From a bacterium (GTDB lineage: Bacteria; SZUA-79; Acidulodesulfobacterales; Acidulodesulfobacteraceae): a stretch of 64,000 nucleotides of DNA. The stretch lies in the NCBI GenBank assembly GCA_021777135.1, contig JAJYDX010000002.1, positions 92,084-156,083 on the forward strand, written 5' to 3'. The notes beneath the pieces were generated by a model. That model was not told the origin of the DNA. It saw only the letters and a program-made list of their open reading frames with translations, and did not search any database. A program made the position numbers and the translations under genes. This document shows, piece by piece, positions 17,538 through 26,498 of the stretch (positions within the stretch are counted from its first letter, which is position 1; every line of letters begins with the position of its first letter).

Positions 17538-18785
17538 ATGAATGCAACAGACAGTTCTATCGAAATATCTTTAAAACATATTAAAACCGCACTTGTTTTT
17601 TTGCCGGTTTTTTTTATCGTAATGTTTTTAGACGTTAAAAATTTTAACGAATATTTTTTTATGAATATGAAAATAATTTCGTTAACCCATATATTTACCC
17701 TTGGGTTTTTATTGATGGTTATTATGGGAGCCTCTTATATGCTTTTGCCAGTAGCTCTGGGAGTAAAGATAGCGTATGAAAAGCTTTTCTTTCCAGTATA
17801 TTACGCATATACGGCATCATTATTATTATTCGTTATAGGCATGCATTATTTTATAGGTTCTGTTATTGCAGCCGGAGGGATCCTTTTATTTATATCGGTT
17901 TTAATTTATAACATAAACATACTTGCAAGTTTGAAAAAGGTAAAAAAATGGGATTATTCCGCCGCCGGAATAGCTTTCGCTTATTCGTACCTGTTTATTG
18001 GGTTGTCGTTGGGATTATACCTTGCTTTATCGTTTTATTTTAAAATAGGGTTTAATATTTACGGCATACTCCAGGACCATATTTACGTTATGTTTATAGG
18101 TTTTGCCGTTATGCTTTTTATAGCCGTTTCATACAGGCTGCTTCCTATGTTTTATATGACTAAAACTCCTGCCGGCATATATTGGAAAACCGATTTAGCT
18201 GCGGTTAACTCTGGCATAATAGCCATAATTGCTTCTTCTTTTTTTAAAAACAGTTCCGCCGTCCATATTTATATGAACGGTATAGGCATAGGTCTGCTTA
18301 GCCTGGGAATCCTTTTATACTGCTATGTGTTTTTTAATCTTATGTTAAAAAGGCTTAAGAAAAAGTTTGATATTACTACTTTTTATCTGTTTGCCGGCAT
18401 TATATTCTTAAAACTGGCTGTCATAATCGGCTTAATGCTTGCAATAATACCGCAAAGAGAATTAAACTTATTCGGCGGTATAAACGGTCTATATTACGTA
18501 TTCGGGTTTTTGGGACTGTTCGGTTTCGGAGGCATGGTAATAATAGGGTTTTTGCATAAAATATACCCTTTCCTAATAAGCCTTAAAGTATTTGAAAAGG
18601 CAAAGAAGGGAGCATACGGAAAATTATTTTCAGATTTAAAAACTAAATATTTAGAATATTTAATATTCGGACTTTTTCTGGCAGGTTCTATTTTTTGGAT
18701 ATTTTATTTAATTCAAATTGCCGCCGCAATCCTTTTCATCGCGTCTTTAATACTTTTATTTCATATACTTTCTATGGGCTGGTAA
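17538..18785 (+). CDS. Polytopic membrane protein, NnrS / heme-copper-oxidase subunit I-like
   Basis: A 415-residue inner-membrane protein with about 12 predicted helices. Two repeated blocks with His followed by a long hydrophobic helix (SLTHIFTLGFLLMVIMGASY and DHIYVMFIGFAVMLFIAVSY, each ending in LLP) resemble the heme-ligating helices of NnrS-like and CcoN-like proteins. The full histidine set of a true oxidase catalytic centre is not apparent, so it is unlikely to be a respiratory oxidase. NnrS relatives protect cells from nitric oxide. AGGTGA precedes the ATG. It converges on the DUF2249 gene, separated by a long palindrome. Confidence 0.55.
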   Translation: MNATDSSIEISLKHIKTALVFLPVFFIVMFLDVKNFNEYFFMNMKIISLTHIFTLGFLLMVIMGASYMLLPVALGVKIAYEKLFFPVYYAYTASLLLFVIGMHYFIGSVIAAGGILLFISVLIYNINILASLKKVKKWDYSAAGIAFAYSYLFIGLSLGLYLALSFYFKIGFNIYGILQDHIYVMFIGFAVMLFIAVSYRLLPMFYMTKTPAGIYWKTDLAAVNSGIIAIIASSFFKNSSAVHIYMNGIGIGLLSLGILLYCYVFFNLMLKRLKKKFDITTFYLFAGIIFLKLAVIIGLMLAIIPQRELNLFGGINGLYYVFGFLGLFGFGGMVIIGFLHKIYPFLISLKVFEKAKKGAYGKLFSDLKTKYLEYLIFGLFLAGSIFWIFYLIQIAAAILFIASLILLFHILSMGW

Positions 18786-18800
18786 AATAAAATAAAAATA

Positions 18801-18863
18801 AAAAGGGGTCAGATTTTAAATCTAAAAGGGGTCAGATTTAAAATCTGACCCCTTTTAGATTTA
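18801..18863. repeat. Palindromic GGGGTCAGATTT repeat at a convergent junction
   Basis: A partial unit (AAAAGGGGTCAGATTT, 18801-18816, plus TAAATCT) is followed by a perfect inverted repeat: 18817-18839 is the exact reverse complement of 18841-18863 around a single base. The right arm contains the stop codon of the DUF2249 gene. It lies between two convergent genes and can act as a bidirectional terminator. A second copy of the core is at 23935-23983. Confidence 0.9.
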
Positions 18864-19409
18864 TTTCCAAATCTTGATCGTATAAAGCTCATCTCCATTG
18901 CTTTCAGTTTCTTCAGTCAAAAATTTATATCCAGCGTCTTTTAACCTAGGATATAAATGTATCGGTTTTCTTTCGTGTATTATGTGGAGCGCATCGGATT
19001 CGCCAAAACTTTCTAAGGTGGAAAATATTTTAAGCATTGGTTGCGGCGGTTCTAAGCCCCTTACATCTAGCTCTATGATATTTTGTTTATGAGCCAGATT
19101 TTTTAAGTCCTCGTCGTTAAATCTATTTTCGTCGGCTTCTTCGGAAACCCTGACCGGTTTTACCCCTGTATCGTTTCTAAAAAAAATAATTTCGAACCCC
19201 TCCGGCACTTTGTTGGTAATATGTTCAAATCCTTTATTTTTTAAAACCGAATAAAGCGGAAACGGTTCAAAACTATTTATTAAGTCGAGCGCCTCCCCGT
19301 CTTTTAATTTGTTTACTTCTTCCATAATCTTTTTGAATGGGTCCGCCCCGTTTTTAATATCTTCTCTTACGTCAAGCTTAATTTTTTTTAAATCGTCTAT
19401 ATTTTGCAT
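18861..19409 (-). CDS. Tandem DUF2249 domain protein
   Basis: A 182-residue soluble protein built of two copies of the TusA-like DUF2249 fold: residues about 8-80 (LDVREDIKNGADPFKKIMEE ... FEPFPLYSVLKNKGFEH) and about 110-182 (LDVRGLEPPQPMLKIFSTLE ... HERKPIHLYPRLKDAGYKF). Each copy has the LDVR start and the P-(L/I)-(H/Y)-LYP-like turn. The family co-occurs with hemerythrins and NO-response genes; its biochemistry is undefined. The ATG follows AAAGGAGG. It is the second gene of an operon after the hemerythrin gene (52-base gap), and its stop codon lies inside the palindromic repeat. Confidence 0.85.
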   Translation of the reverse strand: MQNIDDLKKIKLDVREDIKNGADPFKKIMEEVNKLKDGEALDLINSFEPFPLYSVLKNKGFEHITNKVPEGFEIIFFRNDTGVKPVRVSEEADENRFNDEDLKNLAHKQNIIELDVRGLEPPQPMLKIFSTLESFGESDALHIIHERKPIHLYPRLKDAGYKFLTEETESNGDELYTIKIWK

Positions 19410-22773: not shown

Positions 22774-22935
22774 AATTTTATTTAATTATTATATTATTAA
22801 TATATCTAAATTTTTATATATATTTTTATATAAAATAGTTAAAAATTATAATTGATTTATTTATTTCAATATGTTAAAACGATAAATACAGTTCATTTAA
22901 ATTAACTTTTTTATGAAAAAATGGAGGAACGGGTT

Positions 22936-23931
22936 ATGAACCGAGTTAAACTAAAGCTTTTACTTTTACCGGTTTTTGTGTTTTTATCTGCGCTATTAAT
23001 TTCTAAGAACGTATTTGCCGCTAATTATGGCGTTTATACCAAAATAGCGGTTAATGTTCCGGGAAGCATTTCTTCAGTGTCCCAGAAAGTTGAATCAGCA
23101 CTGAATAGCCATAACTGGACGGTAATAGGTAAATTTAATACGGCGTTGCCGGCAGGGGATTCATATGTTTCCAATGTCATTGTCGCGACTAACGGGGTTT
23201 ACGATAAATATATGGCAGATAACGGCAACTACCCGCTGGGCGCTTTCGGACTGCCTTTAAGGGTAGCAGTTTACAGCACTCCAAACCAGGGCGTCGTCGT
23301 GAGCATGCTCAACCTTCCGGCGTTAGCCAGAACTTTTTCAGGAAATTCATATGTGAATTATGCCGTAGAGGTTAACAATTATTTAAAAGGCGTAATAAGA
23401 GACGCAGTAGGAGGAACGCCTTCTGATGACCAATACGGACCTATGAGAAGCGGCAGGTTTCCGGGCGGTATCGGTGGAGGTTCATTCCCCGGCAGCGTTA
23501 ACCAAATAACCAATTACAGCGGCAGCAGCAATTCAAATCTTTTGGGCGTGGCAGACCTCGTATTAAAAGGCATAGAACATAATAACGGCGGATGGCGGTT
23601 AGTTTACAAAATAGAAAAGCCTTCCATAGGTTTCATAGAACTGGGCGTTACGAGAAATTCCACAGAAAAACATTCGATAGAAATAGACAGCGGTTCAAGG
23701 GCAACTTCTTCTGATAAATTTCCAGGAATAGACCACAGCCCCGCTTATCCCGTAGAAATACTTATATATAGGGACGGAAATTATACCGATATTTCGATTT
23801 TAGGAGAAATGTGGAGAATGAAGTATTATTTTGCCGATGCCGGAATGATGGCTTTTATGAGCCATATGGGCATGCCTGGTTCCATTCAAGGTTCTTTGAA
23901 GCAGATGATTTTATACGGACTTGCATATTAA
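22936..23931 (+). CDS. Secreted protein of unknown function (possibly DUF302-like)
   Basis: A 331-residue exported protein. The ATG at 22936 is preferred over the in-frame ATG at 22921, because GGAGG (22923-22927) lies inside the longer version and 8 bases before 22936. A Sec signal (about 1-28, ending NVFAA) is followed by about 130 residues whose pattern (VESALNSHNWTVIGKF ... YSTPNQGVVVSMLNLPALA) loosely recalls the DUF302 fold. A Gly-rich linker then leads to a second beta-rich domain (about 190-331). No catalytic motif is recognised. It converges on nrdJ across the second palindromic repeat. Confidence 0.6.
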   Translation: MNRVKLKLLLLPVFVFLSALLISKNVFAANYGVYTKIAVNVPGSISSVSQKVESALNSHNWTVIGKFNTALPAGDSYVSNVIVATNGVYDKYMADNGNYPLGAFGLPLRVAVYSTPNQGVVVSMLNLPALARTFSGNSYVNYAVEVNNYLKGVIRDAVGGTPSDDQYGPMRSGRFPGGIGGGSFPGSVNQITNYSGSSNSNLLGVADLVLKGIEHNNGGWRLVYKIEKPSIGFIELGVTRNSTEKHSIEIDSGSRATSSDKFPGIDHSPAYPVEILIYRDGNYTDISILGEMWRMKYYFADAGMMAFMSHMGMPGSIQGSLKQMILYGLAY

Positions 23932-23934
23932 TAA

Positions 23935-23983
23935 AAAACGAAAAAAGGGGTCAGATTTTAAATCTGACCCCTTTTTTCGTTTT
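23935..23983. repeat. Second GGGGTCAGATTT palindrome at a convergent junction
   Basis: A perfect inverted repeat: 23935-23958 is the exact reverse complement of 23960-23983 around one central T. It shares the core with the copy at 18817-18863, but its outer arms are different (ACGAAAAAA type). It starts 4 bases after one stop codon and ends 37 bases before the nrdJ stop, so it probably terminates transcription from both sides. Confidence 0.9.
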
Positions 23984-24020: not shown

Positions 24021-26498
24021 TCATCCGCAATCAGAATACCCGCAGTCGAGGCATACCGTGCAGCCTTCGGCATGTTTTAAATTGGAACCGCCGCATGATG
24101 GGCAGGCTCCCCTGCCTTGGACGGCGTGAGTTTGATTTTGAACGGCTGCGTGTTTTTCGGAATGCGAATCTTCAGGATTTAAGGCGTTATTAGCATTTAA
24201 CACGCTTTTTACATTATTATCCGGCGACATAATTTTTTCGTTAAGACTTTTTTCAAGGGCTTTTCCTATAGCGTCGGCGCATGAATATATTATGTTTGTT
24301 CCGAAACCGTAAGGAATATTACATCTTATTCCTTTTAACTGGCTAATTATCTCTTCGGCGCCTATTCCAGACCTTAATGCCAAGCTTACCATTCTTCCGG
24401 TAGATTCTGTTTGCGATTGTGCGCATCCGCCGGATTTGCCTATAGAGTTAAATATCTCGAAAGGATTTCCGTTTTCATCGTAATTTATAGTTACGTAAAG
24501 AGGACCGCACCCAGTAGTAGTCTTAACGGTTACTCCGCGTATTATATCCGGACGCTTTCTTGGTTCTATTTGCCGTTTATTTTCGCCTATTTTTCCGGCT
24601 GGATTATTATCTGTATCTTTTTTCGACGATTCGCCGTTTCCTGAAGAGCCGGAGGTTAAAACCTGCTCTCTCGAGCCGTCCCTGTAAACCGTAATGCCTT
24701 TTAAGTTAAGATTATAGGCAAGAGTGTAAACTTCTTTTATATCGTCTTTTTTTGCAGAATTATGGAAATTAACCGTTTTACTGACCGCGTTATCCGTAAA
24801 TTTCTGAAAAGCCGCCTGAGTCATAACGTGCCACTTTGGGGTAATATCGTGCGAAGTTATAAATATCCTGCTCAAATATTCATATTCGTCATCTTTCAAT
24901 AATTTAGATATATCCTTGTCGTATTTTTTTCCAAGGCTGCCGTTTTTTACTATAAAATCAATCAGCTGAACCGAATAAACACCCATAGCTTCTAAAACGC
25001 CTTTAAGATTTTTGTCTATTTCTATAAGAGTTTGTTTGTCTAAAACGTGTCTTTCATAGGCAAGCGCGAATAAAGGCTCTATGCCGCTCGAAGCGCCGCC
25101 TATAATGCTTATGGTTCCCGTTGGGGCTATGGTGGTTGTAGTGCCGTTTCTCATGGCTTTATAACCTTTTTCTTCCCAGAGCGAGCCTTTAAAATTAGGA
25201 AAACTGCCTCGATGTATCCCCATCTCCTCCGATTTTATTTTTGATTCTTTATTTATAAATTCCATTATATTTTCCGCGATTTTAAGCGCGAGACCGCTGT
25301 CGTATGGTATTCCTAATTTTATCAGGGTATCGGCATACCCCATAACACCCAATCCAATTTTTCTGTTGGAAAGCGTCATTTTTTTTATTTTTTCTATAGG
25401 ATAATGATTTTTATCTATTACGTTGTCTAGAAAATGAACGGCAGTATGGACGGTTTTTTTGAGAGTATCAAAATCAATAAAGGATAGGTAATCGGATATT
25501 GCGTCTTCAGGATTATTTCCCATTTTTTTTAACGCATCTTTAAGATTCAGTTTATCTTTTTCTATCTTATTTTCTTTTATAAATTTCCCGATGTTAATAG
25601 AACCTAAATTACAGGATTCATAAGCCAATAGAGGCTGTTCGCCGCAAGGATTGGTAGCTTCAATCTTTCCGACGTTAGGTATTGGATTAAGATTGTTTAT
25701 CCTGTCTATGAATATAATGCCGGGTTCACCGCTTGCCCATGCCGTTTCAACTATTAAATCGAAAACTTCTTTGGCGTTAAGATATTTTGATATTTCGTTA
25801 TTTCTAGGATTTATTAAAGGATAGTCCTCGTTTTTTAACGCATGCTCCATAAAATCTTCGGTTATAGCGACGGAAATGTTGAAATTATTAAGCTTGGAAG
25901 TATCTTTTTTAGAAGTTATAAAGTCTATTATGTCAGGGTGGTCTATTCTTAAAATTCCCATGTTTGCGCCTCTTCTGGTTCCTCCCTGCTTTATGGCTTC
26001 TGTCGCGCTGTTGAATACCTGCATAAACGAAACCGGTCCGCTAGAAACGCCTTTCGTGGAATGAACAGTGTCGTTTTTAGGTCTTAGCGAAGAAAACGAG
26101 AACCCGGTTCCGCCGCCGCTCTGATGAATAAGGGCGGTATTTTTTATTGTTTCAAATATGGATTCCATCGAGTCTTCTATAGGAAGGACAAAACACGCGG
26201 AAAGCTGCTGTAGCGGTCTTCCCGCATTCATTAGCGTAGGAGAATTTGGAAGAAAGCGAAGGGAAGACATCTCCTCGAAGAAACCTTTAGCCGTGATTTC
26301 AATATCTTTTTCTGATTTTCCATAATTTAAGTCTGCTTCCGATATATTCTTAGCGACTCTTTTAAACAGATCCGTTATAGTTTCGATAATTTCGCCTTTT
26401 GCGTCTTTAGCCAGGTATCTTTTTTTTAAAACGGTTATTGCGTTTTCGGAAAAATTTAAAGCAAGCGGGTCATTCGATTCGTCTTTTTGCTTTTTCAT
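24021..26498 (-). CDS. nrdJ: Adenosylcobalamin-dependent (class II) ribonucleotide reductase
   Basis: Reduces ribonucleotides to deoxyribonucleotides with a B12-generated thiyl radical, oxygen-independently. The 825-residue protein has the conserved LSACFVLP (Cys102), SGGGTGFSFSSLRP, the NPCGE active site (Asn283, Cys285, Glu287) with SCNLGS (Cys296), and the PTGTISIIGGASSGIEPLFA block. The C-terminal region ends in a Cys-rich tail (CPSCGGS ... CTVCLDCGYSDCG), the redox-active and zinc-binding end of NrdJ. No N-terminal ATP-cone is apparent. The ATG follows AAAGGAGG. Two NrdR boxes lie upstream, predicting repression by NrdR when deoxynucleotides are plentiful. Confidence 0.95.
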   Translation of the reverse strand: MKKQKDESNDPLALNFSENAITVLKKRYLAKDAKGEIIETITDLFKRVAKNISEADLNYGKSEKDIEITAKGFFEEMSSLRFLPNSPTLMNAGRPLQQLSACFVLPIEDSMESIFETIKNTALIHQSGGGTGFSFSSLRPKNDTVHSTKGVSSGPVSFMQVFNSATEAIKQGGTRRGANMGILRIDHPDIIDFITSKKDTSKLNNFNISVAITEDFMEHALKNEDYPLINPRNNEISKYLNAKEVFDLIVETAWASGEPGIIFIDRINNLNPIPNVGKIEATNPCGEQPLLAYESCNLGSINIGKFIKENKIEKDKLNLKDALKKMGNNPEDAISDYLSFIDFDTLKKTVHTAVHFLDNVIDKNHYPIEKIKKMTLSNRKIGLGVMGYADTLIKLGIPYDSGLALKIAENIMEFINKESKIKSEEMGIHRGSFPNFKGSLWEEKGYKAMRNGTTTTIAPTGTISIIGGASSGIEPLFALAYERHVLDKQTLIEIDKNLKGVLEAMGVYSVQLIDFIVKNGSLGKKYDKDISKLLKDDEYEYLSRIFITSHDITPKWHVMTQAAFQKFTDNAVSKTVNFHNSAKKDDIKEVYTLAYNLNLKGITVYRDGSREQVLTSGSSGNGESSKKDTDNNPAGKIGENKRQIEPRKRPDIIRGVTVKTTTGCGPLYVTINYDENGNPFEIFNSIGKSGGCAQSQTESTGRMVSLALRSGIGAEEIISQLKGIRCNIPYGFGTNIIYSCADAIGKALEKSLNEKIMSPDNNVKSVLNANNALNPEDSHSEKHAAVQNQTHAVQGRGACPSCGGSNLKHAEGCTVCLDCGYSDCG

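Follow-up and report, generated by a model that had tools for sequence, protein, structure and literature searches.

The window, i.e., the whole 64,000-nucleotide stretch of DNA analyzed here, carries two palindromes. Copy 1 (18817-18863; 23 perfect pairs) is laid out as TAAATCTAAAA-GGGGTCAGATTT-A-AAATCTGACCCC-TTTTAGATTTA and copy 2 (23935-23983) as AAAACGAAAAAA-GGGGTCAGATTT-T-AAATCTGACCCC-TTTTTTCGTTTT, the latter being a perfect 49-nt palindrome in which 24 pairs flank one central base. Direct reading confirmed what an earlier note on this DNA had described, namely that both copies share the 12-nt core GGGGTCAGATTT and that their outer arms are unlike, each set being fully paired. In addition, copy 1 is adjoined by a direct half-unit that was absent from the earlier note. 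The features of the two junctions are as follows.

17538-18785, + strand: 415-aa ORF, upstream convergent neighbor of copy 1
18800-18816, + strand: extra direct half-unit AAAAAGGGGTCAGATTT beside copy 1 (same architecture in L188 and L237)
18817-18827, + strand: copy 1 left outer arm TAAATCTAAAA
18828-18839, + strand: copy 1 core half-unit
18840, no strand: copy 1 central base A
18841-18852, - strand: copy 1 inverted core half-unit
18853-18863, + strand: copy 1 right outer arm TTTTAGATTTA; the 182-aa gene has its stop codon in the last 3 bases
18861-19409, - strand: 182-aa ORF, convergent with the 415-aa ORF; its ortholog anchors the copy 1 junction
22921-23931, + strand: 336-aa ORF, upstream convergent neighbor of copy 2
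23935-23946, + strand: copy 2 left outer arm AAAACGAAAAAA, perfectly paired with 23972-23983
23947-23958, + strand: copy 2 core half-unit GGGGTCAGATTT
23959, no strand: copy 2 central base T
23960-23971, - strand: copy 2 inverted core half-unit
23972-23983, + strand: copy 2 right outer arm TTTTTTCGTTTT
24021-26498, - strand: 825-aa ORF, convergent with the 336-aa ORF; its ortholog anchors the copy 2 junction

On reading, the sequence of the 825-aa ORF suggests a ribonucleotide reductase. Among its orthologs (L249, L254, L267, L271, and L274), the frame measures 1215-1275 aa in some genomes versus ~770-890 aa in most others, which suggests that the frame around this ribonucleotide-reductase-like gene has been extended or has gained an insertion, for instance an intein.

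The window holds five matches to the core (at most 1 mismatch), against 0.27 expected from shuffles. Both palindromes fold strongly as RNA (copy 2 with a z of about -10) and are predicted to be terminator-like, with a GC stem and then a T-tract at the gene ends, as in intrinsic terminators. An Rfam search of the region returned only sub-threshold look-alikes of miRNA, snoRNA, and sRNA hairpins. The corresponding junctions of sister species hold related but different hairpins, of the GGGGCCTGATTT, GGTGTCAGAATT, and GGCGTCAGATTT types, with unalignable flanks. None of these sister junctions proved to be a clean empty ortholog whose flanks could be aligned, so neither arm of copies 1 and 2 could be assigned as native. 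The intergenic flanks of the orthologs compared for another locus, L232, were not alignable either.

In the genome of the window, the 12-mer core occurs 13 times: within the palindromes, several times as an unpaired single copy (TAAAGGGGTCAGATTTATTTA form), and once in apparently coding sequence. The exact-core pattern, which biases the recovered cores towards perfection, revealed two further palindromes in this genome, one at C1 (outer arms of just 6 bp, then a mismatch) and a fourth at C60 with the core GGGGACAGATTT. Without its outer arms, the palindrome reads GGGGACAGATTTGAAATCTGTCCCC as one string. The palindromic form is present in 18 of the 30 genomes of the bacterial family, where a reversed control pattern had 0 matches. 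Among the matches listed from elsewhere, it was found in Delta- and Gammaproteobacteria, Nitrospirae, Coprothermobacterota, a Clostridium metagenome-assembled genome (MAG), and others, and the palindromes measure 24-25 bp across phyla. One complete Marinobacter plasmid has a related palindrome with AGGGAC ends, phages yielded weak matches only (91% identity over 23 bases), and a full-text literature search for the core sequences gave no relevant paper among those listed.

The same motif lies next to a transposase gene. Our genome has one Y1 transposase gene with the single-unit form of the repeat on its flanks, and sister genomes show the same arrangement at related genes, where the cores begin GGGG, GGTG, or GGCG and continue as [AT]CAGATTT. 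At several loci of the genus, units of either orientation, direct or inverted, are found within ~1.2 kb of a Y1 (IS200-like) transposase gene; these single repeat units beside the IS200-like (Y1, REP/TIR-associated) gene have the core as their end motif. The transposase gene matches PF01797, with an NF047646 match below the cut-off. Subclass 2.1 transposases have an HTH extension at the C-terminus; here, ~120 residues follow the Y1 domain, and no Pfam HTH match was obtained at E ≤ 1. In two papers, the terminal repeats of TIRYT transposases have the consensus GGGGWSAS (PMC3733652) and those of Y1 subclass 2.1 read GGGG[AT][CG]A[CG] (PMC6006769). Both GGGGTCAG and GGGGACAG conform to GGGGWSAS. 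It is therefore likely, when taken jointly with the snap-back copying proposed below, that the core represents a terminal repeat, of the kind associated with an IS200-like Y1 transposase, in the form of a minimal palindromic dimer whose half-units GG[GTC]G[AT]CAGATTT stand head to head. Its distribution shows that this 24-25-bp cassette spreads into intergenic DNA and, in frame, into coding DNA, presumably moved by a mobilizing enzyme.

A linkage between palindrome and transposase gene at the locus was rejected, because just 1 of the 116 loci outside the family (among the matches listed) has the gene close by and because, by the PF01797 profile, the gene is absent from several palindrome-bearing genomes. 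G022, for example, contains 12 palindromes yet has no PF01797 match. At L014 (1064-2971), degenerate single units (AATAAAGGNGWCAGATTTATTT) cluster around a Y1 transposase gene, and CACTCCGGCAGAC follows some of them. L375 (G012) holds a longer hairpin, with terminal repeats of the GGCGTCAGATTTTATTTTACGCA type around a loop, and this hairpin may be related to the palindrome in a MITE-like manner.

We assessed outer-arm pairing against a shuffle control, in which left and right flanks were re-dealt among copies. The 50 family copies have a mean of 4.72 contiguous outer pairs, compared with 1.28 after shuffling; the largest mean of the shuffles was 2.14, and 0 of 2000 reached the family mean. For 116 copies in other taxa (among the matches listed), the mean is 1.70 versus 0.38. 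The excess is confined to approximately outer positions 1-8, and arm lengths are bimodal, with many of 0-1, others of 4-14, and one of 25. In the AT-rich family, the innermost AAAA/TTTT may be part of the element rather than copied. Most palindromes of one genome have differing arms. RNA stems that evolve by compensatory change should leave wobbles and pairs beyond mismatches, whereas a copied tract should not. Indeed, pairing in the 10 nt past the first mismatch is 0.239 and 0.250, with a background of 0.29-0.31, and first mismatches are not enriched for G-T wobble (5/28 and 3/20).

Copies with imperfect arms, which the earlier note had named as a finding that would speak against it, do exist (the C1 copy, L335, L284, and L344). 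They weaken the idea of continuous correction and leave a templated origin unaffected. Since one-sided and concerted outer changes occur at similar frequency in orthologous pairs (13 and 10, respectively), the arms are not continuously corrected.

The earlier note had also proposed that the copies lie between convergent genes as bidirectional terminators. This placement holds for copies 1 and 2 and fails as a general rule. By a simple ORF rule, with further checks limited to the genes named here, the 50 family copies include 21 with tandem neighbors, 19 within ORFs, 6 at convergent junctions, and 2 at divergent ones; elsewhere, 44 of 109 copies (among the matches listed) are intragenic and 15 convergent. 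Profile matches support several palindrome-bearing genes as real, i.e., those for a mannosyltransferase, chorismate synthase, a sigma-54 activator, and an iron-sulfur/NADH-ubiquinone oxidoreductase 20 kDa protein. Intragenic copies, a location that does not fit an intrinsic terminator, are in frame (e.g., in chorismate synthase and the sigma-54 activator), and those of the family also have paired arms, of up to 14 bp. The chorismate synthase palindrome occupies a variable loop, in frame; its paired arms differ by species, and other species have degenerate or half copies. Depending on the species, this one loop position contains a half-unit, a palindrome, or a palindrome in decay, always in frame (L242 997-1021 in G026, L335 in G000, L339 in G014, L344 in G024, and L345 in G008), which gives it the look of a tolerant hot spot.

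Orthologous genes reveal both the copied tract and its native template directly. In the mannosyltransferase of G022 (L416/L188), the left flank AAAGCGGTGGAAAA contains the KAVE codons (AAA GCG GTG GAA), which are conserved in orthologs with or without the palindrome. The 14-nt inverse of this flank, TTTTCCACCGCTTT, lies across the palindrome in G022 only; in the orthologs, the sequence opposite the KAVE codons is not their inverse. Across four lineages of this gene, the arms are unlike and pairing is kept. In a Syntrophaceae sugar-epimerase-like gene, comparison of the filled L122 with the empty ortholog L145 gives a net in-frame insert of 36 nt: TTTTCG (coding strand) is native in L145, and its inverse CGAAAA is present in L122 only. 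In the linker of the sigma-54 activator, F-x-S is encoded by a right flank that varies with the species (TTTTTTTC, TTTTTATC, TTTGTTTC, and CTTTATTTC), and the left arm is the exact complement of this flank in each of them. The palindrome-free activator gene of G018 has the right flank and lacks the left arm; this site could represent palindrome loss rather than an empty site. Finally, the palindrome at G016 6049, together with 13 nt of flank (CGGTGGAAACAAA), equals the inverted surroundings of a copy 444 bp away, and the G017 ortholog is without both palindrome and flank. Each of these short tracts thus repeats nearby native sequence in inverted form, uninterrupted and sharply bounded, as expected of a template switch. 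Collectively, the pairing above shuffled levels, which applies to the family and to other phyla, the abrupt ends, and the arms traceable to native flanks bear out the templated arm-to-arm copying that the earlier note had suggested.

Snap-back template switching, with a mobile TIR-type palindrome as its site, is in our view the best explanation of the locus-specific paired arms, and a likely one. In quasi-palindrome template-switch mutation, one event makes one arm the reverse complement of the other (PMC7202029, PMC8794818); from this known process and from the footprint described above, we infer the snap-back step. During replication, a new strand that had just copied the palindrome would fold into a hairpin, which would bring its 3' end against the flank just synthesized. 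The polymerase would then extend this end on its own flank as template, for a few to ~14 bases, before rejoining the original strand. The product would be flank X, the palindrome, and the reverse complement of X, i.e., a constant core with arms that are locus specific and still paired. The tandem half-units beside copy 1, L188, L237, L257, and L335 are compatible with slippage at these hairpins. More tentatively, the palindrome might be a self-spreading hairpin that multiplies mainly through replication template switching with no dedicated transposase, whereby the nascent strand would gain the palindrome elsewhere by microhomology, snap back, copy its own flank, and return. Were this so, each insertion would bear a signature pair of locally templated arms.

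Selection on RNA hairpins, which in bidirectional terminators would keep the arms complementary via compensatory mutations, agrees with the convergent setting and terminator-like scores of the window copies and with the related but different hairpins at the same junctions of sister species. However, it is unlikely to be what causes the pairing, since intragenic, in-frame copies carry paired arms too, and equally long ones; the abrupt tract ends, the lack of wobble enrichment, and the inverted copy of the conserved mannosyltransferase codons also argue against it. Copies 1 and 2 may well act as bidirectional terminators too, as predicted from their structure, but as a consequence of the palindromes. 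It is similarly improbable that the arms are carried by the mobile element and owe their variation to insertions that each copied another source copy plus some flank. The two G016 copies that lie 444 bp apart do share identical arms and 5 more flank bases, and family arms are A-rich, as are the AATAAAGGGG half-units; this idea conflicts, however, with the local native flanks that match the arms in L416 and L122/L145 and with the diversity of arms within one genome.

A preference of the element for the centers of pre-existing inverted repeats would yield paired, locus-specific arms in a single step, but the empty sites L145 and G018 hold just one of the two arms and orthologs of the G022 gene have no inverse opposite the KAVE codons, making such a preference very unlikely. 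Even less credible is an assembly or library artefact of MAGs at hairpins. Among the listed loci of named source, long arms do occur only in MAG contigs, those of cultured isolates being 0-1 bp, but identical arms recur at orthologous sites of different species (L193/L195 and L240/L226), reading frames remain open, and tracts stop after a few bases, where native sequence resumes.

The snap-back copying proposed for this palindrome has the same footprint as known quasi-palindrome template switching; the difference here is its recurrence at one mobile palindromic core, reaching unrelated flanks. REP/REPIN elements with RAYT transposases are short dispersed palindromes tied to Y1 transposases, and the palindrome described here resembles them in all these respects. 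It differs from them in its many intragenic copies and perfect stems, and GTAG or GTGG at the 5' foot of the hairpin is not present as a rule in the flanks of the copies read. The TIR repeats of TIRYT transposases (TIRtrons; Di Nocera 2013, PMC3733652; Y1 subclass 2.1, PMC6006769), as far as excerpts of these sources describe them, are alike in their GGGGWSAS-fitting core and in the single units that, here in this genus, flank an IS200-like Y1 transposase gene. TIRs occur single, dimeric, or grouped, whereas abutted 24-25-bp palindromes are common here, several palindrome genomes lack a transposase gene, and the excerpts contain no mention of locus-specific paired arms. In-frame insertion is common to our palindrome and the Rickettsia palindromic elements, which are palindromic repeats inside protein genes (PMC3733652), but the 24-25-bp core represents an unrelated motif, spans several phyla, and has copied outer arms.

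These observations bear on the old question of how perfect hairpins originate and are kept up without broken intermediates. With one recognizable core at many loci, in many phyla and at orthologous sites, the tract length, direction, and frequency of natural snap-back copying become measurable, and in-frame coding copies separate mutational cause from selection on RNA structure. In addition, a short palindrome adds ~8-12 residues to conserved enzymes.

The mannosyltransferase loop also holds, in frame, another palindromic repeat that is unlike the first, CCCCTCCTTAAAAGGAGGGG ... GGCCGAAGGCCGACGGGG (L426, L427, L428, L436, and L437), and a repeat related to it is located where the 182-aa gene meets its convergent neighbor (L279, L283, and L290).
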